From positions 1-45,352 of the forward strand of contig JAGYLU010000011.1 in assembly GCA_018400755.1 (NCBI GenBank): a stretch of 45,352 bases of DNA, given 5' to 3'. Of this stretch, positions 5,101 through 36,506 are shown one piece after another (the first letter of the stretch is position 1; the number at the start of each line of letters is the position of its first letter). The notes beneath the pieces were generated by a model, which saw nothing but the letters and a program-made list of their open reading frames with translations, did not search any database and had not been told where the DNA came from. Origin of the DNA: Acholeplasmataceae bacterium (GTDB lineage Bacteria; Bacillota_I; Bacilli_A; Acholeplasmatales; Acholeplasmataceae). A program made the position numbers and the translations under genes.

Positions 5101-8043
5101 CTATGCATTTGGATTGAGCCTGACATTGTAGGTCTGGCCCTTGACGTTCAGCGTGTAGAAATAATGCGTGATCCGTCCGAAGTCTTCCTGGACGGCAACG
5201 GTCACGGTATAGAATCCGGGACGGTTGACGTCATGGTAACTTGAATAATAGATGTTGGCATCCGGGTACAAGTCGGTTCTAATGGTGACATTGGATGCAG
5301 GATTGAAGGTATCGCCGGCATCAATCTCGACAACGCTGTCCTTGATGGTGATGACAGCTGTTGTGTCCTCGACCAGGATGGCGGTTGTGTTGGCAGGAAT
5401 GAAGAGGGTGCCAGATACAGACTCAAGACCACTTGGATCATGCATCATGTAGTTGGTCAGGATCTTGAAGGTTTTGCCAGCAGGGAGCGTGACGCTTGAG
5501 AGACCACCGGATGGGGTACCGCTATGAAGTACGACGATGTCGGGATCATTGCCGAGACCTTCGATTTGGTAAGCGATGGCGTTGCTGCCATTGGTGGTAT
5601 CAAGGAAGGACAGGCGGGTTCTGATCTCATTGGCGTTATCGATCCGGAAATGGTCATAGGCTTTTCTGATTCTGATCAGATCCCGGTAATACTCAAACAC
5701 ATCGTTGTACTGGAGCTTTCTATCCCATCTGAGCTGATTGACAGAATCAGGGGATTCATAGGAGTTGTGGTCGTATCCACCTTCTTCAAGCGGTTTTGAT
5801 CGCATGAACTCAACCCCGGCATGAAGGAACGACAATCCTTGTGATGTCAAGATGATGGCATTGGCCTGGACCTGCATGGCTTTGACCTTGTCGCGGTGTC
5901 TTGTGCCGGAGAAGCCAGAGAGCATGAACTTGTCGTAGAGGGTGTTGTTATCATGGGCGGTGACATAGTTGATGGTCTGGGTTGGATCGAGATGCCAGGC
6001 GTTGGTTGTTTCAACACCAGGGAAACTCACACCACCGACGATGCCATATTTGACGGCACGGGCGGTATCATTTGTCTGGTTGCCTTGGACCCATCCTTGT
6101 TCGGCGGCTTGGAACACCGATCCTTTGACGCCGTCTCTCACGGTGTCATTAAAGGCACCGACACCAGGCATCAGATCGATGTTTTCTTTGTCGGCACGGA
6201 TGCTTTCAGGTAGCGGACTTGTACCGCCATTCCAAGGTTCACCAAAGACGGCGATGGTCGGATCAATCGTGTCAAGGAGATCTCTGATGTCATTCATGGT
6301 GCTAGTATCGTGAAGCGCCATGAGGTCGAATCTGAATCCGGAAAGATTGTATTCCGATGCCCAGAAATCGACTGAGTCAAGCATGAATTTACGCATCATG
6401 GATCGTTCCGAGGCGGTTTCATTACCGGTGCCGGATCCATTGGAGAAGCCACCGGTTTCGGTCAGACGGTGATAGTAACCGGGAACGATCTTGTGGAAAT
6501 TGGATGTTTCTGATTCACCGGTATGGTTGTAGACAACATCCATGATGACGCGGATGTCATAGGCATGAAGAGCCATGACGGCTTGTTTGAACTCATTGAT
6601 TCTGGTGCGTCCGTCAAAAGGATTGGTTGAATAGGAGCCTTCAAGGGTGTTGAAGTGATAAGGCATGTAGCCCCAGTTGAAAATATTCGTGTAGTTGGGA
6701 TTCGTAAACGCTTCGATCTCATCGACATAGCCAAAGTCGAAGATCGGCAACAACTGGACAGCGTTCACGCCAAGATCGGCGATGTGATCAAGGCCGGTCG
6801 TGACGGTGGTTTCGCCGTCACTGTAGGTGGTGCCGGTCTCAGTGAGTCCTAGGAAAGTGCCGCGATGATCATCGGTGCCGTTCCAGGAATCATGGGAGGT
6901 CAGATCACGGACATGGAGTTCGTAGATGATGTAGTCGGTCAAGGAAGTGATTGTGTCGGGTCGGTCACCATAAGCCCAACCTTCGGGGTTGATGGCATCG
7001 AAGTTCACAATCATGCCGCGTTGACCGTTGGCGCCAGTTGAATAGGCATAAGGGTCGGTGACCTCATTGGTCACACCACTATTGGTGACAGAAAACGTGT
7101 AATACATGAAATCAACGTTTTCAGTGACAACCGTTTCCCAGGCCCCGTTTTCAATTCGGTCGAGGGGGATACTCATGACGGGTGTGTCCTCACTGCTTGG
7201 TTGGCCAAGATCGTTGTAATCGGGATGACCTTGGTTGTAGAGATTCAAGACGACCGCGTCGGAGAGGGGTGCCCAAAGTCTGAAGACGGTGTTGTCACCG
7301 GAGAAACTCACGCCTAAGGTGCCTTCGTAGGTGTATAGGTCTTCAAAGTCATCGGTATCAAAGAGATTTTGAAGAGAGACAACCTTCTCTGAGGACAAAG
7401 CTTCTGAGAAATGAACAACAAGTGTGTAGGTCTTAGAGATGTTGACATCAGGCACAGTGATGACCATTGATGTCGAGGTCGCGGTTCCGGAGAACAGGAA
7501 GACGCCGTCTTCATAAACATCATAACCGTTTTCCGGGATGGCAGTCAAGGTTGCCGCGATGCGCTTCTGGACATCGAATGAGGCAATCAGGATCTTGTCA
7601 CGGTAATCAGGAATGTTGTTGGCAAGGTCAGCCTCTGACATGCCAATGTTGATGTCCTGTTCGACAAAATACGCATGGGCGACGCCCCCGATGACTTCAA
7701 GGTCAGAGAGTTCAATGAACCGGTCACCACCGATTTCACGGTAACCGTCCCATCCGCCTTGCTTGATGATGATTCCGATCTTGGTCGCTCCAGGGTAGGA
7801 TGCGTCAAGATCGATGGTGTAGTAGACACCGTGTTCATCGGTCTGCAAAGGATCAAAGTTGTGTTGGATACCGCCCCTGGCAACAGGTTCGTTCTCCCAA
7901 ACCCACATATTGAAATTCGTGTAGTCGTCATCGTAGCGATAATAATGGACGACAAGTGATGTTGGTGTTTCATCCGCCTGAACAATCAGGCCGGTGCCAA
8001 ACAAAAGCAGAGTGCCAAAAAGCAGCACAATCATTTTTTTCAT
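5101..8043 (-). CDS. pulA: Secreted type I pullulanase with CBM41-like module
   Basis: The 980-residue protein has an N-terminal signal peptide ending near residue 23. It is followed by a CBM41/PUD-like alpha-glucan binding module (~28-130, aromatic-rich VVHYYRYDDDY...MWVWE), a linker or Ig-like region, a CBM48-like domain (~240-340), the GH13 catalytic barrel (~370-800) and a C-terminal beta-domain. Conserved sites include the pullulanase FNWGYMP variant of YNWGY (~455), VIMDVVYNHTG (region I), GFRFDLMAL (nucleophile Asp573), FGEPWNGG (Glu602) and TAHDNN (His697-Asp698). It should hydrolyse alpha-1,6 branches in pullulan, amylopectin or glycogen outside the cell. No LPXTG sorting signal is visible. 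GGAGGT lies just upstream of the ATG. It is divergent from the starch-binding/malEFG operon. Confidence 0.93.
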   Translation of the reverse strand: MKKMIVLLFGTLLLFGTGLIVQADETPTSLVVHYYRYDDDYTNFNMWVWENEPVARGGIQHNFDPLQTDEHGVYYTIDLDASYPGATKIGIIIKQGGWDGYREIGGDRFIELSDLEVIGGVAHAYFVEQDINIGMSEADLANNIPDYRDKILIASFDVQKRIAATLTAIPENGYDVYEDGVFLFSGTATSTSMVITVPDVNISKTYTLVVHFSEALSSEKVVSLQNLFDTDDFEDLYTYEGTLGVSFSGDNTVFRLWAPLSDAVVLNLYNQGHPDYNDLGQPSSEDTPVMSIPLDRIENGAWETVVTENVDFMYYTFSVTNSGVTNEVTDPYAYSTGANGQRGMIVNFDAINPEGWAYGDRPDTITSLTDYIIYELHVRDLTSHDSWNGTDDHRGTFLGLTETGTTYSDGETTVTTGLDHIADLGVNAVQLLPIFDFGYVDEIEAFTNPNYTNIFNWGYMPYHFNTLEGSYSTNPFDGRTRINEFKQAVMALHAYDIRVIMDVVYNHTGESETSNFHKIVPGYYHRLTETGGFSNGSGTGNETASERSMMRKFMLDSVDFWASEYNLSGFRFDLMALHDTSTMNDIRDLLDTIDPTIAVFGEPWNGGTSPLPESIRADKENIDLMPGVGAFNDTVRDGVKGSVFQAAEQGWVQGNQTNDTARAVKYGIVGGVSFPGVETTNAWHLDPTQTINYVTAHDNNTLYDKFMLSGFSGTRHRDKVKAMQVQANAIILTSQGLSFLHAGVEFMRSKPLEEGGYDHNSYESPDSVNQLRWDRKLQYNDVFEYYRDLIRIRKAYDHFRIDNANEIRTRLSFLDTTNGSNAIAYQIEGLGNDPDIVVLHSGTPSGGLSSVTLPAGKTFKILTNYMMHDPSGLESVSGTLFIPANTTAILVEDTTAVITIKDSVVEIDAGDTFNPASNVTIRTDLYPDANIYYSSYHDVNRPGFYTVTVAVQEDFGRITHYFYTLNVKGQTYNVRLNPNA

Positions 8044-8102
8044 AGGTCTATACCTCCTTCATTATCACTATATCATGAATTCGCTTGACAGACTGTTTCA
8101 AA

Positions 8103-8116
8103 TGATAGCGATTACA
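8103..8116. promoter_or_regulatory. LacI/cre-like operator 1 in the pullulanase/malE divergent region
   Basis: TGATAGCGATTACA matches TGWAANCGNTNWCA except at position 4. It is the first of three related sites between the divergent start codons and lies nearest the pullulanase gene. Confidence 0.5.
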
Positions 8117-8119
8117 AAA

Positions 8120-8133
8120 AGAAAACGGTTGCA
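8120..8133. promoter_or_regulatory. LacI/cre-like operator 2
   Basis: AGAAAACGGTTGCA carries the central CG and both arms of the cre-like pattern with two mismatches. Its centre is 17 bases from operator 1. Confidence 0.4.
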
Positions 8134-8146
8134 CATTGCGCACGCG

Positions 8147-8161
8147 TGTAAAGCGTTTACA
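8147..8161. promoter_or_regulatory. Palindromic LacI-type operator 3
   Basis: TGTAAAGCGTTTACA has perfect 6-base inverted arms (TGTAAA/TTTACA) around GCG. It includes the putative -35 hexamer of the rightward promoter, which fits simple repression by a maltose-responsive LacI-family regulator. Confidence 0.6.
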
Positions 8162-8185
8162 TATTTATATGTTTCGTGATAAGAT
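8156..8185 (+). promoter_or_regulatory. Putative promoter of the starch-binding/malEFG operon
   Basis: TTTACA (8156-8161) is followed after 16 to 18 bases by GATAAG or TAAGAT (within 8178-8185). The -35 box is the right arm of operator 3. A strong AAGGAGG ribosome site precedes the ATG at 8234. Confidence 0.5.
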
Positions 8186-8233
8186 GTACGTGTCAAAGAA
8201 TGGTCACATTCTTATACAAAAAGGAGGAAAACA

Positions 8234-9676
8234 ATGAAGAAAGCATTGCTTGCTTTGGTTCTCGGAATGTTCGCGATTGCCGCATTTGGCGTCATGTCAT
8301 ATGCAGTTACAAACGACACCGGGAATTTGGTCGTTCATTTCCAATCTTGGGAAGGCGACTACGAAAATTTGGGCTCATGGGCTTGGGGCGGACCAGCCGC
8401 AGGCAAATTGGCGGATGGCACTGACGACTTTGGTGCTTACTGGGAATACAATGACATTCCTGTTGGCACATCGGTCGGCTTTATTGCTGTCTATTGGGTT
8501 GGAGAAGGTCCGAACTGGGACGCGAAACTGACTGGCGACATCAACATCGATCCTTCAGCGATCATTGCTGGTGAAACTGTCCACGTTTACGTCTTTGAAG
8601 GTGCTGCAACCAACGCGGAAAATCCAGGTTACTTCATCGCAAGCAACACGCATGCGAACATGCTTGTTGTCTACTATGATCCTGCTGGAAGCTATGAAGA
8701 AACCCTCGGCGTTCACGCATGGGGCTGGCTTGATGTTCCGTCCGAATGGGGCAATCCTTACCAAGGCTTTACCAAGGCTGGCGCTTCTGAAGCTGGTTAT
8801 GATGTCAAGGGCATGATGCTTCAGGCAACTGAAGACGGGGCTGGTCTATTGATTTATGCTGGCGCAGATGCCAACAAGAAGACCGGTGATGTCACGCTTG
8901 CTAATTCGACAACATTCGCACCTGGCAATGTCGGTGTCTCTTATGTTGTGAGCAAGGGCGATGCCTATACTGCCAATGACAATGTCTTCTACAATGATCC
9001 TGCAGCTTTCTCGGAAATGGCATTCTCATTCTCGCTTGTGCCTTACAACAACGAAGACAAGACTGGCACATACGCTGTCAATCCTTCAACCGTGATCGTT
9101 CAGACTGGCGCTCAGATCAATTCTCCTTATCCTGATGCTGAGGACAAAGAAGTGGCCACAGCAACCATCGAAGGTTGGTTTGAAATCAAAGAAGTGATTG
9201 AAGAAGGCGTCTATGGTGATCCATTGACACTCGAACGTGTTGACTTCGCAACCACAAACACAACCCTGAACGCGTTCGTCTTGGTGCTTGCTGACGGTAG
9301 TGAACTAGACAACACGAAGGATTATGAAGTGTTCTTCAATGATGGTGTCAATGACGCATCTCTCGCCGTCGATATCGACCGCGACGCACCGGTATTGACA
9401 TTCATCAATCCGTCATCGATTGTCGGACAACTTCCTGAAGACCGGATCATCACTGTTGAGTGGGGTCAGCCGTTCAATCCGAACCTCTTCCCGAGATTCT
9501 TGGTTGACGACAACCGCGATGGTGACTTGACTCCGTTCGTTTATGTTCCTGAGGGTGATTTCTCTGTGCTTGACACCGGAGAAGAAGGCGACTACACCAT
9601 TATGCTGCGCGTTGAAGATGAATGGGGCAATGTCACAGAAGAAACATTCATTTTCAGAGTCGCAAAGACTAATTAA
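8234..9676 (+). CDS. Secreted non-catalytic starch-binding-like protein (CBM41/PUD-like modules and Ig-like domain)
   Basis: The 480-residue protein has a signal peptide with likely cleavage after SYA (~residue 25). Two tandem aromatic-rich modules follow (~31-130 and ~136-270). They open with LVVHFQSWEGDYENL and LVVYYDPAGSYEETL and each contains a WAWG or HAWGW motif, resembling the CBM41/PUD module of the neighbouring pullulanase. A region of ~290-380 is unassigned, and the C-terminus is an Ig-like bacterial surface domain (~388-480, with DDNRDGD and a GDYTIMLRVEDEWGN ending). No GH13 barrel or catalytic motif is present. The gene lies 12 bases upstream of malE. I infer that it captures alpha-glucan or dextrin at the cell surface for the MalEFG transporter; no anchor is visible, so retention is unexplained. 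Confidence 0.75.
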   Translation: MKKALLALVLGMFAIAAFGVMSYAVTNDTGNLVVHFQSWEGDYENLGSWAWGGPAAGKLADGTDDFGAYWEYNDIPVGTSVGFIAVYWVGEGPNWDAKLTGDINIDPSAIIAGETVHVYVFEGAATNAENPGYFIASNTHANMLVVYYDPAGSYEETLGVHAWGWLDVPSEWGNPYQGFTKAGASEAGYDVKGMMLQATEDGAGLLIYAGADANKKTGDVTLANSTTFAPGNVGVSYVVSKGDAYTANDNVFYNDPAAFSEMAFSFSLVPYNNEDKTGTYAVNPSTVIVQTGAQINSPYPDAEDKEVATATIEGWFEIKEVIEEGVYGDPLTLERVDFATTNTTLNAFVLVLADGSELDNTKDYEVFFNDGVNDASLAVDIDRDAPVLTFINPSSIVGQLPEDRIITVEWGQPFNPNLFPRFLVDDNRDGDLTPFVYVPEGDFSVLDTGEEGDYTIMLRVEDEWGNVTEETFIFRVAKTN

Positions 9677-27897: not shown

Positions 27898-29384
27898 GAA
27901 GAAGCGGTATTCTCTTGCACATCTCGAGTCTTCCGGGGCCGTATGGCATCGGATCATTTGGTAAAGAAGCTTATCGGTTTGTCGATCAGCTTCACAGTGC
28001 CAAACAGACATACTGGCAGATTTTGCCACTCGGACCGACATCCTATGGCGATTCCCCTTACCAGACTTTTTCAGCATTCGCGACCAACCCATACTTCATC
28101 GATCTTGACATGCTCAAAAAAGAGGGTTTGTTGAAGACTTCGGAGATCAAGGATCAGATCGTGCCCACATCCCGTGTCGATTACGGCTGGCTTTACAGTA
28201 CCCGTCTTAATGTGCTCAGAAAAGCGTTTGCACGCTTTGATGTGAACCAAGACGATTTTCTCGCATTCGTCAGGAATGAAGCTGCTTGGCTTGAAGACTA
28301 TGCCTTGTTCATGGCCATCAAGGAGCATCATGGCGGTCTTTCCTGGTCAAAGTGGGATGACCCTTTGAGAATGCGAAAGACCGAAGCCATCCAGACGATC
28401 AAAGAGTCCTTGAGAGAAGAGGTCCTCTTTCATCAGTTCATGCAATACTTGGCGTATGGACAATGGATGAGACTCAAGGCATACGCCAACAGCAAGGGCA
28501 TCAGGATTATTGGGGATATGCCGATCTATGTCTCCTATGACAGCAGTGATGTCTGGGCCCAACCCGATCTCTTTGACCTTGATGAGGCAAGAAATCCCAA
28601 ACATATCGCCGGTGTGCCACCGGATTCCTATTCCGATGACGGACAGCTTTGGGGCAACCCTCTCTATGACTGGGATCGCATGAAAGAAAATGGATATCAA
28701 TGGTGGACCCGCCGCGTCACTTCTTCAATGGTTCTCTTTGACCGCATCAGAATCGATCATTTCATCGGCTTCCAAAATTACTTTTCGGTCAAGTTTGGTG
28801 AGACAACCGCCCAGCATGGGGTCTGGAAACAAGGGCCTGGAATCGATTTGTTCGATGCCATCAGAGAAACCCTTGGAACCCCGGATATCATTGCCGAGGA
28901 TTTGGGTGTGGTCACACCCGAGGTCAGGGCTCTGCTCAAAAAGACCGGATTTCCAGGTATGAAGTTGTTGCAGTTCGCCTTTGATGCCCGGGAATCTTCA
29001 GATTATCTCCCTCATTACTATGATCGGAATGCCGTTGTCTATACGGGGACTCATGATAATGAGACGACCAAGACATGGCTTTCAAACTTGACAAAAGAGA
29101 ATCAGCGCTATTGTCTGGACTACATCAACCATCAGGGCAAAGGGCATGCGGTTGACAGCATGATCAAAGCGACCTTGCTATCGATGGCGGATACCGCCAT
29201 CATACCGATGCAGGATTATCTTGCCTTGGGTGAAGAAGGGCGGATGAATACCCCGTCCACACTTGGAAACAATTGGACATGGCGACTGCAAAAGCAAGAT
29301 TTCCACGTCCGTTTGGTCAAGAAGATCAGTCGTTTCACGACCCTTTATGGCCGTGAACCGAAGGGGGAACAAGACCATGGATAA
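27894..29384 (+). CDS. malQ: 4-alpha-glucanotransferase (amylomaltase, GH77)
   Basis: The 496-residue protein is a standard-length GH77 enzyme. Its start, RRSGILLHISSLPGPYGIG, and QILPLGPTSYGDSPYQ are hallmark blocks. FDRIRIDHFIGF carries the nucleophile Asp, IAEDLGVVT the acid/base Glu, and GTHDNETT the stabilising Asp. It disproportionates short maltodextrins into longer chains plus glucose in the cytoplasm, feeding GlgP with usable substrate. It overlaps malL by four bases, and its own end overlaps the GH5 gene start by eight bases, so the three genes form a tight operon. Confidence 0.95.
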   Translation: MRRSGILLHISSLPGPYGIGSFGKEAYRFVDQLHSAKQTYWQILPLGPTSYGDSPYQTFSAFATNPYFIDLDMLKKEGLLKTSEIKDQIVPTSRVDYGWLYSTRLNVLRKAFARFDVNQDDFLAFVRNEAAWLEDYALFMAIKEHHGGLSWSKWDDPLRMRKTEAIQTIKESLREEVLFHQFMQYLAYGQWMRLKAYANSKGIRIIGDMPIYVSYDSSDVWAQPDLFDLDEARNPKHIAGVPPDSYSDDGQLWGNPLYDWDRMKENGYQWWTRRVTSSMVLFDRIRIDHFIGFQNYFSVKFGETTAQHGVWKQGPGIDLFDAIRETLGTPDIIAEDLGVVTPEVRALLKKTGFPGMKLLQFAFDARESSDYLPHYYDRNAVVYTGTHDNETTKTWLSNLTKENQRYCLDYINHQGKGHAVDSMIKATLLSMADTAIIPMQDYLALGEEGRMNTPSTLGNNWTWRLQKQDFHVRLVKKISRFTTLYGREPKGEQDHG

Positions 29385-30387
29385 ACTCAAAGGGGTCAAC
29401 TTGGGCGGATGGTTCGTGCTTGAGAAATGGATCAAACCATCGATGTTTGAAGGCCTTGATGCCGAGGATGAAACAGGATTTGTCCTCAAACATCCCAATC
29501 CCCAAGAAGCGCTTGTCGAGCATTGGGAAACATTCATTACGGCCCATGATCTGAAGTTGATTCATGATGCCGGAGTCAACACGGTCCGTCTTCCGGTACC
29601 ATGGTGGATGTTTGGGGCTGCTCCCTATGTCCCATCCGTCGATCATATCAAGCGTGCCATCAAAATGATTGATGAGGCCGGTCTTGATGTCATCATCGAT
29701 TTGCATACCGCACCTGGGTGTCAAAATGGTTTTGACAATGGCGGCATCAAAGGTGTCATTGGATGGCATACCGATCCCGCAAACATCACTGAGACAATCC
29801 GGATTTTGGCTAAAATTGTCGACACGTTTGATGGGATGCCAAGTGTGGTCGGTTACGAGGTTTTAAATGAACCTCATATGACCGTTCCTGAAGACACACT
29901 CAAGGATTTCTATCTGCGGGCATATGGGGCCATCAGGAAACAATCTGACAAAACGGTCTTCTTCGGTGATGCGTTTCGCACCGACGCCCCGTTCTGGGAA
30001 CCGTTTCTGACGCAATCGTCATTTGAAAACATCGCTTTTGACCTTCATCCCTATCATTGTTTTGGAGATGCATTGCCTTTCGCACCCTTTGAAAAGCATC
30101 TGGCTCTCGCGCTTGATAGGCGTTTGACCCAGATCAAGCGGATTTCTATGTTTGTTCCGGTCATCATCGGTGAATGGTCGCTCTGCATGAGATATGAAAC
30201 GATGCCCAAGGGAGAGACGTTCGATACAGGGCTTTATGACCGGATTATCGGCAATATCCAACGTTATGTCTATGATCATGCCTGGGGACAGTTTTTCTGG
30301 ACTGCGAAAGTCGAGAAGCCAGATGACCACCATTGGGATTATCTGAAGCTCGTCGAGAAAGGGATTCTCGCACCATTCTCCAAGTAA
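29377..30387 (+). CDS. Glycoside hydrolase family 5 (exo-beta-1,3-glucanase/cellulase-like)
   Basis: The 336-residue protein has no signal peptide. The start block KLKGVNLGGWFVLEKWIKPS is typical of the exo-1,3-beta-glucanase-like GH5 group. YEVLNEPHMT holds the acid/base Glu and VIIGEWSLC the nucleophile Glu; HPYHCF and FFWTAKVEK are also GH5-like. The likely reaction is hydrolysis of a beta-glucoside or beta-glucan oligosaccharide in the cytoplasm, which is unexpected inside an alpha-glucan operon. The ATG at 29377 is chosen because GGGGGAAC precedes it and the homologous region begins there. The frame stays open upstream to 29263, inside malQ. Confidence 0.85.
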   Translation: MDKLKGVNLGGWFVLEKWIKPSMFEGLDAEDETGFVLKHPNPQEALVEHWETFITAHDLKLIHDAGVNTVRLPVPWWMFGAAPYVPSVDHIKRAIKMIDEAGLDVIIDLHTAPGCQNGFDNGGIKGVIGWHTDPANITETIRILAKIVDTFDGMPSVVGYEVLNEPHMTVPEDTLKDFYLRAYGAIRKQSDKTVFFGDAFRTDAPFWEPFLTQSSFENIAFDLHPYHCFGDALPFAPFEKHLALALDRRLTQIKRISMFVPVIIGEWSLCMRYETMPKGETFDTGLYDRIIGNIQRYVYDHAWGQFFWTAKVEKPDDHHWDYLKLVEKGILAPFSK

Positions 30388-33246: not shown

Positions 33247-33304
33247 GTTCTTTGACCAATAATTTAAGGTCATCAGATGTATGATAGGTGGATGGGGGCA
33301 TCAT

Positions 33305-33814
33305 ATGGAACAGATCAAAGATTTTGTTGTTGCATTTAAAAACCATGATTACACCACCTTTGACCGTTTTTATGATTTGACCAAGAAGAAGGTCTTTTTC
33401 GCTGTCATCGCGATTGTCAGGGATGAGGACGCCGCATCCGATATCATGCAAGAGACCTACATGTCGTTTTTGAACAACATCGACAAAGTCGAACCGGCCC
33501 TGAATGTGATCGCATATCTCACCACCATCGCAAGGCACTTGGCCATCAACCAGTACAACAAAGACAAACGGATTGTCTGGTCTGATGAGCTTGTCCAGTC
33601 CATACCGAGTGCGGAGGAGGCAAACGATGATGACATCTTCTGGCTTCTTGATGTCTTACCTCAAGACCAAAGAGAGATTGTCGTCATGCACGTCATCAAT
33701 GACATGACATTCAGAGAAATTGCCGGCATCATGAAGAAGCCACTTGGAACCGTCTTATGGCTTTATCAAAAAGCACTTAAAAAAATGAAAGACCAATTGG
33801 GGGATGACCTATGA
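33305..33814 (+). CDS. ECF/SigI-like RNA polymerase sigma factor
   Basis: The 169-residue protein has a region 2 (~8-75, with DAASDIMQETYMSFLNN) and a region 4 helix-turn-helix (~112-160, with LPQDQREIVVMHVINDMTFREIA). No region 1 or 3 is visible, as in ECF sigma factors. It would redirect RNA polymerase in response to an envelope signal. The ATG at 33305 is chosen because a GGGGG-containing ribosome site precedes it; the earlier start at 33281 has none. The ATGA overlap with the next gene is the usual sigma/anti-sigma arrangement. No clear autoregulatory promoter was identified. Confidence 0.88.
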   Translation: MEQIKDFVVAFKNHDYTTFDRFYDLTKKKVFFAVIAIVRDEDAASDIMQETYMSFLNNIDKVEPALNVIAYLTTIARHLAINQYNKDKRIVWSDELVQSIPSAEEANDDDIFWLLDVLPQDQREIVVMHVINDMTFREIAGIMKKPLGTVLWLYQKALKKMKDQLGDDL

Positions 33815-34854
33815 AAAGAAAACAACTCATTCAACTCATCAAATCAAAGGCTGATCAGGTTCAGGTTCCTGATCTGTCACAAACGATTGTGGACAAGATC
33901 AAAGACATGCCGGTGGCTGTGCCCATCATCCGTCCGGCCCGTGTCTCATTCAATCGCCGGCTTGCTTTGGTGTCCTTTTCCTTTGTGCTTCTTTTGGCCA
34001 TCTCCTTCTTTGCCTTGATCAGTCCCTCACCAACCTATGTGTTCGCCGCCGAAGATGATGTCATGCTCATGTCATCGATCTATGCCGAAGGGCTTCATAC
34101 CGATGATCTTGAGGCCTATGGCCCAGGGGATGTCGCTTTGGATAGTGAGGTGCTCTATGTCGGTCTTGAACTGCCAAAAATCGCCGGGTATATGACGCTT
34201 GTTGATACCAGACTGGGACTTCAATCACTGCCTTTGATCCATAAATCAACAGAAGACGGGTTGACGGTGATGACGTTTGTGATCAGTGCTGGAGATGATG
34301 ATGAGAAAACGTATGTGCTCCGTTATGAGACATCGGTCACAGATGCCAAAAAAGATCTCTTCGTCCATATCGGAACGCTCACAAGCGGACTCAGGACCTT
34401 GCCGTTTCGCGCCCGGAGTGTGCTTGAAGACGGCCAACATGGACTTGTGTTCACACTTGGACAGCAAGAGACCGATGGCATCATCATCACCTATAACCAA
34501 AGAAATGACGGACGTCAATTTGACGCTCAGATCTATAACGATGGCACCATGAGAAGACGGGTCGAACTATCGGCACTGGCGGAATCCCCTGATGATTTCA
34601 CGATGCACTTCGTCGAAGGGGATGTCGTGGGAACGTATCGATTTGAGCGCCATGACGCTTTGGAAGCTCACGATATTGATGTCACTTATGCGATCATGGT
34701 GGGATCAGATACCGAGACTGGAACGATGCGGGTGACGCTTGCGGGCATGCCAGGCCAACAAACGATGCGGTTTGACATCCATGCCCGCGGCAAAGATGCC
34801 CATTCCATGATGTTTGGTCATGACCATCACGACCCCCATGATGACAATCTTTGA
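33811..34854 (+). CDS. Putative transmembrane anti-sigma factor with large extracytoplasmic domain
   Basis: The 347-residue protein has a cytoplasmic N-terminus of ~48 residues, one transmembrane helix (~50-69, ALVSFSFVLLLAISFFALI) and an extracytoplasmic region of about 275 residues that looks beta-rich. The cytoplasmic part is shorter than a zinc-type anti-sigma domain and lacks the HxxxCxxC motif. The tail is His/Asp-rich (HSMMFGHDHHDPHDD) and could bind metal. Assignment as the anti-sigma partner rests on topology and on the four-base overlap with the sigma gene. The RsgI-like lipoprotein gene follows. No family is recognised for the outer domain. Confidence 0.65.
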   Translation: MKRKQLIQLIKSKADQVQVPDLSQTIVDKIKDMPVAVPIIRPARVSFNRRLALVSFSFVLLLAISFFALISPSPTYVFAAEDDVMLMSSIYAEGLHTDDLEAYGPGDVALDSEVLYVGLELPKIAGYMTLVDTRLGLQSLPLIHKSTEDGLTVMTFVISAGDDDEKTYVLRYETSVTDAKKDLFVHIGTLTSGLRTLPFRARSVLEDGQHGLVFTLGQQETDGIIITYNQRNDGRQFDAQIYNDGTMRRRVELSALAESPDDFTMHFVEGDVVGTYRFERHDALEAHDIDVTYAIMVGSDTETGTMRVTLAGMPGQQTMRFDIHARGKDAHSMMFGHDHHDPHDDNL

Positions 34855-34870
34855 AAATCATAAAAAAAAG

Positions 34871-34907
34871 CACCAATAAAACCGGGCTTGAGTTGGTACT
34901 ATTGGTG
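34871..34907. other. Inverted repeat between anti-sigma and RsgI-like genes
   Basis: CACCAAT and ATTGGTG (7 bases each) flank a 23-base loop that itself contains ACC/GGT. On the minus strand the hairpin is followed by a T-run; on the plus strand there is no U tract. It may set relative expression or mRNA stability within the operon. Confidence 0.45.
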
Positions 34908-34925
34908 AAATGGAGGAGAATACAA

Positions 34926-35930
34926 ATGAGAAAAATGAAACAATTGCTTTTTGCAGTCATCTTGCTAGCCGCGGTCTTTGGGATCGTCGCTTGCGACCAG
35001 ACCGAGGAAATCACCGAAACCTTGGGCACAACTGATTCCTATGTGACCATCGATATCAACCCCTCAGTCAGTCTAGTGGTCTCACCAGCGGGGATCGTTG
35101 TCGCCGCAATCCCTCTCAATGAAGACGGGGAAATGCTGTTATTGGAACTCGAACTTGAAGGATTGACATTGGAAGAGGCAACCGACCTGATCATCGCCGA
35201 AGCCATCGCCCTTGGGTTTATCGATGTCGATAGCGAAGAGGTCATTGTCACCGTCGATGTCACCAACAGCGACGATGCCATTCAGGACCGGGTCCGTGAC
35301 CGGGTCAAAGAACATTTGAACAACGCGTTCTTGAAGCGGGCCATGATGGGCCGGGCCGAAGACAAAGGCTATGATCCCGAACTGATTGCTGAAGCCGAAG
35401 GCTATGGCGTCACCCCAGGTTTCTTGCTTCTTGCGAAGAGCGTCGTTGAACTCAATGACGAGCTGACTCTTGAAGACGTGTTGCTGATGGACAAAGAAGA
35501 CTTGATTGCGCTCGTCAAGGATGCCAAAGAAGCTGCCAAAGACGTTGCCCAGGCACTCAAAGAACAGTTCTTTGCTGCCCGTCAGGAACTCTTTGATCTC
35601 TATCTTCCGCAAATTGAGGCTTTGAATGCCCAAATCGCGGAAGCGACTGAAGAAGAACTTGACGCATTGGTTTTGCAGCTCGAAGCACTTGAAGCTGAAC
35701 TTCATGCCGCTGTCATCGAACTCAGAGATGAGTTTCATGTGGAATCCATGCTGCTCAAACTTCAGCTCAAAATCCAACATCAAGCCAAGATCGCTTTGCA
35801 TCATGAGAAGGTCCAAGATTTTCTAGATCACATCAACCAACGCAAAGAAGAACGTCAGGAAGACATTGAGGATTATCAGGACAGAGGAAACGGGACGCCC
35901 ATGAATGCCCTCTATCCAGGGCGTTATTGA
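34926..35930 (+). CDS. Lipoprotein carrying an RsgI-like extracytoplasmic domain and coiled coil
   Basis: The 334-residue protein has a lipoprotein signal peptide (GIVAC, Cys23). It then carries SYVTIDINPSVSLVV (~38-52), PLNEDGEMLL, EEATDLIIAEAIALGFI and a later AEGYGVTPGFLLLAKSV. These blocks match, in order, the middle extracellular domain of the anti-sigma factor RsgI, including the DINPS motif whose Asn-Pro bond is the autocleavage site in RsgI proteins. Residues ~200-315 are strongly helical, Glu/Leu/Ala-rich and probably coiled coil. The N-terminal cytoplasmic anti-sigma domain of RsgI is absent, replaced by lipid anchoring. The ATG at 34926 follows GGAGGAG at 7 bases. It probably takes part in signal sensing for the upstream sigma/anti-sigma pair. 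Confidence 0.8.
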   Translation: MRKMKQLLFAVILLAAVFGIVACDQTEEITETLGTTDSYVTIDINPSVSLVVSPAGIVVAAIPLNEDGEMLLLELELEGLTLEEATDLIIAEAIALGFIDVDSEEVIVTVDVTNSDDAIQDRVRDRVKEHLNNAFLKRAMMGRAEDKGYDPELIAEAEGYGVTPGFLLLAKSVVELNDELTLEDVLLMDKEDLIALVKDAKEAAKDVAQALKEQFFAARQELFDLYLPQIEALNAQIAEATEEELDALVLQLEALEAELHAAVIELRDEFHVESMLLKLQLKIQHQAKIALHHEKVQDFLDHINQRKEERQEDIEDYQDRGNGTPMNALYPGRY

Positions 35931-35972: not shown

Positions 35973-36506
35973 GCAAACAGGATTTGTGGCGGGTGATGCT
36001 TTTGAATTCACAAAGTGATCTCAATGACCTCAAAGAGATGATCATCAACGGGGAGAAAATGATTCGACATGTCTTTCCTCGAGGCCACCTTCATGACCGG
36101 ATAAGCAGACGACAAGAATCGTGAATCTGAAGGAGTTAAGGCAGGAAGAAGCGAAAGATAAGGCATTGATGGTTGTCTTCTTAGTCGTTTTGATGGCTTT
36201 GTTATCCCCTGGAAGATAGCCGAGATTGAAGACCACACCTTTAAATGATCTGATATGAGTCAAGATATGCTCATGGGAGTCATGGATCAGGGTGACATTG
36301 TCTTTTGGTGATTTGTCAATTAGACGTTTGCGGGTCATCACAAGGGCTTTCTCCTGGATATCAAAGGCGTAGACATGATCAGAAAGTTGGGCAAGGAAGA
36401 GGGTGTCATGGCCATGACCCATGGTGGCATCAACGACGGTATCAGGTGCTGGTGATGTTTTGCCCTAGCAAGTGATGGGCGAGATCAATGATCGCGGCTT
36501 GGTCAT
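35960..36506 (-). pseudogene. ytqB: YtqB-like class I SAM methyltransferase, frameshifted
   Basis: A 125-codon open frame (36422 to 36045) carries the SAM-binding block of the YtqB/rRNA methylase-like family: DATMGHGHDTLFLA, YAFDIQEKA, VVFNLGYLPG and LVVCLSGHEGGLEE. Coding similarity continues beyond it in other frames. Upstream, a frame reading AAIIDLAHHLLGQNITS (about 36490-36436) precedes VVDATMG after a shift. Downstream, HFLPVDDHLFEVIEIT and then NQKHHPPQILFAKKEK-like residues lie in further frames. The original ATG probably overlaps the radical SAM stop codon at 36503-36506. At least three frame changes are needed to restore a full-length protein of about 180 residues. Sequencing error or true decay cannot be separated here. 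Coordinates are approximate. Confidence 0.65.

Follow-up and report, generated by a model that had tools for sequence, protein, structure and literature searches.

The window, by which we mean the whole stretch of 45,352 nucleotides that was analysed, carries on its forward strand three consecutive genes, named here SIG, ASF and LIP. SIG (33305-33814) encodes an ECF sigma factor that matches Pfam Sigma70_r2 (5e-9) and Sigma70_r4_2 (5e-10), exceeds the cut-off of TIGR02937 (sigma70-ECF) in an NCBIfam search and is 43-54% identical to its orthologues. We place its start at 33305 because the alternative ATG at 33281 sits inside the -10 box of the promoter. Its reading frame shares 4 bases with that of ASF (33811-34854), which encodes an N-terminal domain, a single transmembrane helix (about residues 53-71, positions about 33967-34023) and a beta-rich ectodomain (about 34042-34851). 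The preliminary description of an ECF sigma gene overlapping the gene for a one-helix anti-sigma protein, with a lipoprotein gene behind them, is thereby confirmed, coordinates included. With a putative autoregulatory promoter in front, SIG and ASF have the make-up of an ECF sigma factor and its one-helix anti-sigma protein, and ASF is predicted to inhibit SIG.

The whole ASF protein has no match in Pfam or NCBIfam. In profile comparisons its N-terminus and transmembrane helix match those of fused ECF anti-sigma proteins, in which an RsgI_M domain follows the helix (93% probability, E 2.5e-7), and its ectodomain gives no match to LIP or RsgI_M. The AF2 model of ASF (pLDDT 69) consists of helices followed by about 14 strands, and a fold search of the ectodomain against the PDB returned nothing below 1e-3, with weak matches to other beta proteins (OspA, 5e-3). 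Since the ectodomain matches neither RsgI_M nor any solved structure, ASF is not an RsgI trimmed of its outer part; it has an unrelated 14-strand ectodomain of its own. A diverged RsgI_M concealed in ASF is ruled out by the profile comparison and the fold search.

LIP (34926-35930) is preceded by a ribosome-binding site and encodes a protein with a type II signal and lipobox (Cys23), an RsgI_M domain of the SEAL type (35037-35432) and a long helical tail (35493-35888), which the AF2 model shows as a pair of long helices. RsgI_M is its only recognised domain (residues 38-169; PF23750, 8e-24, 85 bits against a cut-off of 25), so that the profile search proposed in the preliminary description gave a significant match, and its claim of a lipoprotein bearing the RsgI domain and no anti-sigma domain holds. 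DINPS lies at residues 43-47, and VTPGFLLLAKSV is present too. Within DINPS, the Asn45-Pro46 codons (35058-35063) mark the predicted autocleavage bond: Pro46 aligns with residue 1 of the post-cleavage RsgI chains 8her_B, 8hep_B and 8u9o_B, and in the AF2 model (mean pLDDT 70) the bond falls at the turn between predicted strands beta1 (38-43) and beta2 (47-52). RsgI domains are the only Foldseek matches of this model below 1e-3 (8t9n, 8her, 8hep and 8hdj; for 8t9n_B, E 8e-5 and TM 0.71). The Asn-Pro pair is kept in 18 of 19 LIP orthologues and is also present in the other RsgI_M lipoproteins that we read. LIP agrees with RsgI_M/SEAL domains in sequence, fold and scissile bond, and it probably cleaves itself.

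Conservation, promoters and predicted targets

The order leuS-SIG-ASF-LIP-methylase-radical SAM is kept at every intact locus of this kind in the family Acholeplasmataceae; the preliminary description had left the three-gene order to a survey of relatives, and it is conserved. Among 41 family genomes, SIG orthologues (E <= 1e-73) occur in 17 and LIP orthologues (E <= 1e-45) in the identical 17, a coincidence whose formal probability of 7e-12 overstates the evidence, the genomes being related. Identity to the window protein across relatives is 40-50% for LIP as against 17-24% for ASF. Judged from gene content, LIP is an obligatory companion of the predicted sigma/anti-sigma switch. The genome of origin is a draft of 239 contigs and belongs to the same genus as the Acholeplasmataceae MAG G002 (locus L034). 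Downstream of LIP, on the reverse strand, the methylase gene (36008-36422) consists of a 125-aa frame and a second, overlapping frame, and most relatives have a protein of about 176-186 aa, which suggests a frameshift or a sequence error.

A conserved ECF-like element, ACCAATAAAA-N14-GTATATAnnGTG, precedes both SIG and LIP. The promoter of SIG and ASF (33255-33290, forward strand) reads ACCAATAAT-N15-GTATGATAGGTG and is found upstream of SIG, at fixed spacing, in 18 of 19 family loci. LIP has a separate promoter of the same type (34872-34907, forward strand; ACCAATAAAA-N14-GTACTATTGGTG), found at all 20 family loci checked and without mismatch in the genome of origin. The -35 and -10 boxes are retained across loci and the spacers are variable. 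A matrix built from the SIG and LIP sites reached a score of 20 nowhere in 2 Mb of random sequence with the same composition as the window, and a pattern search of the genome of origin yielded six sites at the correct spacing against seven summed over eight other spacings.

With the extended pattern and zero mismatches, that genome holds three sites only: those of SIG and LIP, and a third that precedes the gene for a secreted S8 subtilase of 887 aa. The family has orthologues of this subtilase in nine genomes, each of them one of the 17 that have SIG and LIP (p 7e-5, likewise overstated by genome relatedness), and a CCAATAAW-N15-GTA site lies just 5′ of the gene in eight of the nine, G002 being the exception. 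The same element stands upstream of genes for DUF2202 proteins in three genomes (L128:4347-4925 in G027, L129:1147-1695 in G016 and L131:2597-3202 in G064), and upstream of paralogues of LIP that have no sigma neighbour (L055, L056). One of these paralogues (L056:5016-7364, in G036) is a 782-aa lipoprotein with three tandem RsgI_M domains and a one-mismatch promoter of this type. SIG would read the shared element, and its predicted regulon would include the secreted subtilase and the DUF2202 proteins.

Natural variants lack one part or another of the system. One genus, g9 (four genomes), retains leuS, the sigma gene and ASF together with the two promoters, and it has a third gene as well; this third gene has neither lipobox nor RsgI_M, and its product is matched by the helical part of LIP alone. 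Because the g9 sigmas group with the SIG1 clade (support 100/99) at the same leuS-linked site, loss of RsgI_M is the simplest reading. The homologue L032 has Ser-Pro in place of Asn-Pro and a Ser/Thr-rich insert, the LIP of G063 keeps Asn-Pro and lacks the lipobox, and that of G019 is split over two frames. These variants come from draft genomes, and single cases may be assembly errors. Since g9 has lost RsgI_M and the lipobox, and L032 the Asn-Pro bond, autocleavage and lipid anchoring are to all appearances usual yet dispensable, and cleavage is apparently not essential in every member.

Relation to SigI/RsgI and to other detached ectodomains

The operon resembles the SigI/RsgI systems of Bacillus subtilis and Clostridium thermocellum in its RsgI_M domain, in the Asn-Pro bond and in having a sigma gene that adjoins the gene of a membrane anti-sigma protein. 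In contrast to them, its sigma factor is of the ECF kind, RsgI_N is absent, RsgI_M sits on a separate lipoprotein, and both the promoter type and the predicted targets differ. Group V SigI proteins consist of SigIN and SigIC and have no region 4, whereas SIG has one; this match and that to TIGR02937 led us to reject SigI identity. The RsgI_N model (PF12791) finds no match in ASF and does match the RsgI of locus L121 (RsgI_N plus RsgI_M), and thus detects true RsgI. RsgI_M occurs in LIP only, on a different polypeptide from the anti-sigma domain. SigI promoters have an A-tract -35 and a CGWA -10 (PMC10575876); those of this operon are of the ACCAATAAAA-N14-GTATA type. The operon lacks the defining features of SigI/RsgI and should not be classed there, so that this assignment in the preliminary description falls.

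Further parallels are systems with an ECF sigma factor and a fused anti-sigma::RsgI_M protein (L037, L045, L053 and L054 in sister families, and also L122, L123 and L126). They share with the window operon the ECF sigma, a homologous anti-sigma N-terminus and RsgI_M, and differ in that the domain is on the anti-sigma itself as well. In two sister families (f5 and f3) the resemblance extends to an RsgI_M lipoprotein downstream of the sigma and fused anti-sigma genes. In f10, an RsgI_M+PepSY lipoprotein lies 5′ of the sigma gene and an RsgI_M+PepSY anti-sigma 3′ of it, and f16 has a SigI/RsgI-type pair with an RsgI_M lipoprotein behind it. The ectodomains of fused anti-sigmas match LIP with an E value of 2.7e-26. 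The same type of third gene was observed in the SigI-type operons L121:1929-4535 and L127:747-3433, where the RsgI_M lipoprotein carries Asn-Pro-Glu.

A second operon of the genome of origin (L103:1893-4746, that is, G000:C1:57392-60245), also present in many relatives, encodes a lipoprotein followed by SIG2 and ASF2. Its lipoprotein carries the anti-sigma ectodomain of the ASF type (E 2.8e-38) and has an ECF-like promoter of its own, with a -10 of the CGTTTA kind. Because the RsgI_M type recurs in f5, f3, f10 and f16, and the ASF type in operon 2, the ectodomain of an anti-sigma is met again on a lipoprotein in two unrelated folds; the window operon is a mixed case, with an ASF-type anti-sigma and an RsgI_M lipoprotein. 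Cross-talk of LIP with an RsgI_M anti-sigma in a second operon is excluded, LIP being the only RsgI_M copy in a genome-wide search of the 239-contig draft.

The preliminary description had spoken of a split RsgI, and this does not hold: ASF has its own ectodomain, and relatives bear RsgI_M in anti-sigma and lipoprotein alike. LIP is therefore better read as a detached copy than as a split-off part of RsgI. In the literature searched, of which coverage was incomplete, we found no earlier description of a detached RsgI_M lipoprotein; here RsgI_M serves in an ECF sigma system, on a detached lipoprotein with a promoter of its own.

Possible roles of the lipoprotein

The reading that we favour, tentatively and with somewhat less than an even chance of being right, is that LIP is an accessory lipoprotein under the control of its own sigma factor that modulates ASF in trans, in an RseB/CpxP-like feedback. 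RseB, encoded with sigma and anti-sigma in the Escherichia coli sigma-E operon, binds RseA and has to be displaced before cleavage (PMC8103513); LIP shares with it the position of an accessory extracytoplasmic protein and differs in its unrelated fold and its lipid anchor and in having a sigma-type promoter to itself; that LIP binds ASF is putative. CpxP acts on CpxA (PMC4160245), and no promoter is induced by Cpx more strongly than that of cpxP (PMC4817254); the likeness lies in an accessory protein strongly induced by its own system, as predicted for LIP, and in an envelope protease among the predicted targets, and the difference in that CpxP is an unrelated protein of a two-component system and that feedback by LIP is putative. 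LIP shows no homology to RseB or CpxP, since every Foldseek match below 1e-3 is an RsgI domain. Like an accessory regulator of this kind, the LIP gene bears the predicted promoter of the system itself.

In the mechanism that we propose, ASF would hold SIG in the resting state, and an envelope signal would lead to cleavage of ASF outside and then inside the membrane. RsgI6 undergoes self-cleavage in its periplasmic domain and an intramembrane cut by RseP, and what is left is degraded by ClpXP (PMC12203970). Freed SIG would raise the expression of SIG itself, of the subtilase and, from its separate promoter, of LIP, which would act in trans on the ASF ectodomain as a feedback modulator, as RseB does on RseA and CpxP on CpxA. 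Restraint would be released when LIP loses its body, either because the strand already cut at Asn-Pro dissociates or through the action of the co-regulated subtilase. M50 proteases are present in all ten family genomes tested; the 530-aa (RseP-type) M50 protease of seven relatives was not found in the draft genome of origin, which holds a 414-aa M50 protein only, and this may be a gap in the 239 contigs.

We lean towards a modulator since the ectodomain of an anti-sigma is so often found on a lipoprotein as well. This role is further supported by the identical sets of 17 genomes, the conserved order and the LIP promoter at 20 of 20 loci, by the confinement of the subtilase to those genomes with a promoter site in 8 of 9, and by the kinship of LIP with fused anti-sigmas together with the operon 2 parallel. 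The ectodomains of ASF and LIP are unrelated, and therefore homotypic contact cannot explain the window operon. Against a modulator we count g9, without RsgI_M and lipobox, L032, without Asn-Pro, the 530-aa M50 protease that was not found in the draft genome, and the consideration that a regulon gene may adjoin its sigma gene without regulating the sigma.

One alternative is nearly as likely as the modulator: LIP would be no more than an effector of the sigma regulon, either a surface protein or a chaperone of the envelope, would never touch the anti-sigma and would adjoin SIG as its main target gene. Spy is such an effector of the Cpx regulon. The separate promoter of LIP, the promoter-bearing paralogues that have no sigma neighbour and the helical tail, which is the part kept in g9, all agree with an effector; it leaves unexplained, however, why the same ectodomain occurs on lipoprotein and anti-sigma in f5, f3, f10, f16 and operon 2.

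The self-cleaving domain of known RsgI proteins signals through its attachment to the membrane helix that bears the anti-sigma. The preliminary description had proposed that LIP is itself the sensor module and acts in trans on a separate transmembrane protein; in this reading, Asn-Pro autocleavage and loss of the outer part would signal positively to ASF. We consider this unlikely. It fits the RsgI_M domain and the near-universal Asn-Pro bond of the orthologues and other RsgI_M lipoproteins, but cleavage of LIP yields no membrane stub for a site-2 protease on ASF, the system persists in g9 without the domain and in L032 without Asn-Pro, and predicted induction of LIP by the sigma fits feedback better than primary sensing. 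Most improbable is a decoy or buffer, left over when the anti-sigma took the operon 2 ectodomain, that binds a ligand or force-bearing partner once shared with an RsgI_M anti-sigma: homologous anti-sigma N-termini with different ectodomains and the ASF-type ectodomain of operon 2 agree with it, but LIP is better conserved than ASF and its promoter is kept throughout, unlike a leftover.

Across a whole bacterial family, a probably self-cleaving domain and an anti-sigma have been separated and long kept together, and one genus has discarded the domain. This is a natural experiment on the purpose of autocleavage, in which it can be tested whether an RsgI_M domain signals when it is unattached to the inhibitor. 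Detached anti-sigma ectodomains of two unrelated folds suggest a general design principle of ECF systems that annotation would miss. The stronger proposal, that anti-sigma ectodomains of unrelated fold are repeatedly re-issued as free lipoproteins beside the sigma gene, we regard as doubtful; it would make them a general sensor module working in trans, with a separate anti-sigma controlled by a self-cleaving RsgI_M lipoprotein that is itself produced by the sigma it helps to control.

The alpha-glucan island

The preliminary description had also linked the sigma factor to a neighbouring alpha-glucan island and to polysaccharide sensing. We reject this link: the locus is anchored to leuS throughout the family, and the scan of the window gave two promoter matches only, those of SIG and LIP, with no such site within the island. 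The otherwise alpha-glucan island ends in a GH5 (cellulase-family) protein gene (29263-30387), whose longest frame overlaps the GH77 gene. The window also contains, at 5101-9676, a divergent pair of genes whose products have PUD (pullulanase-associated) domains; one of the two proteins bears an amylase domain besides, and the other has no recognised catalytic domain.
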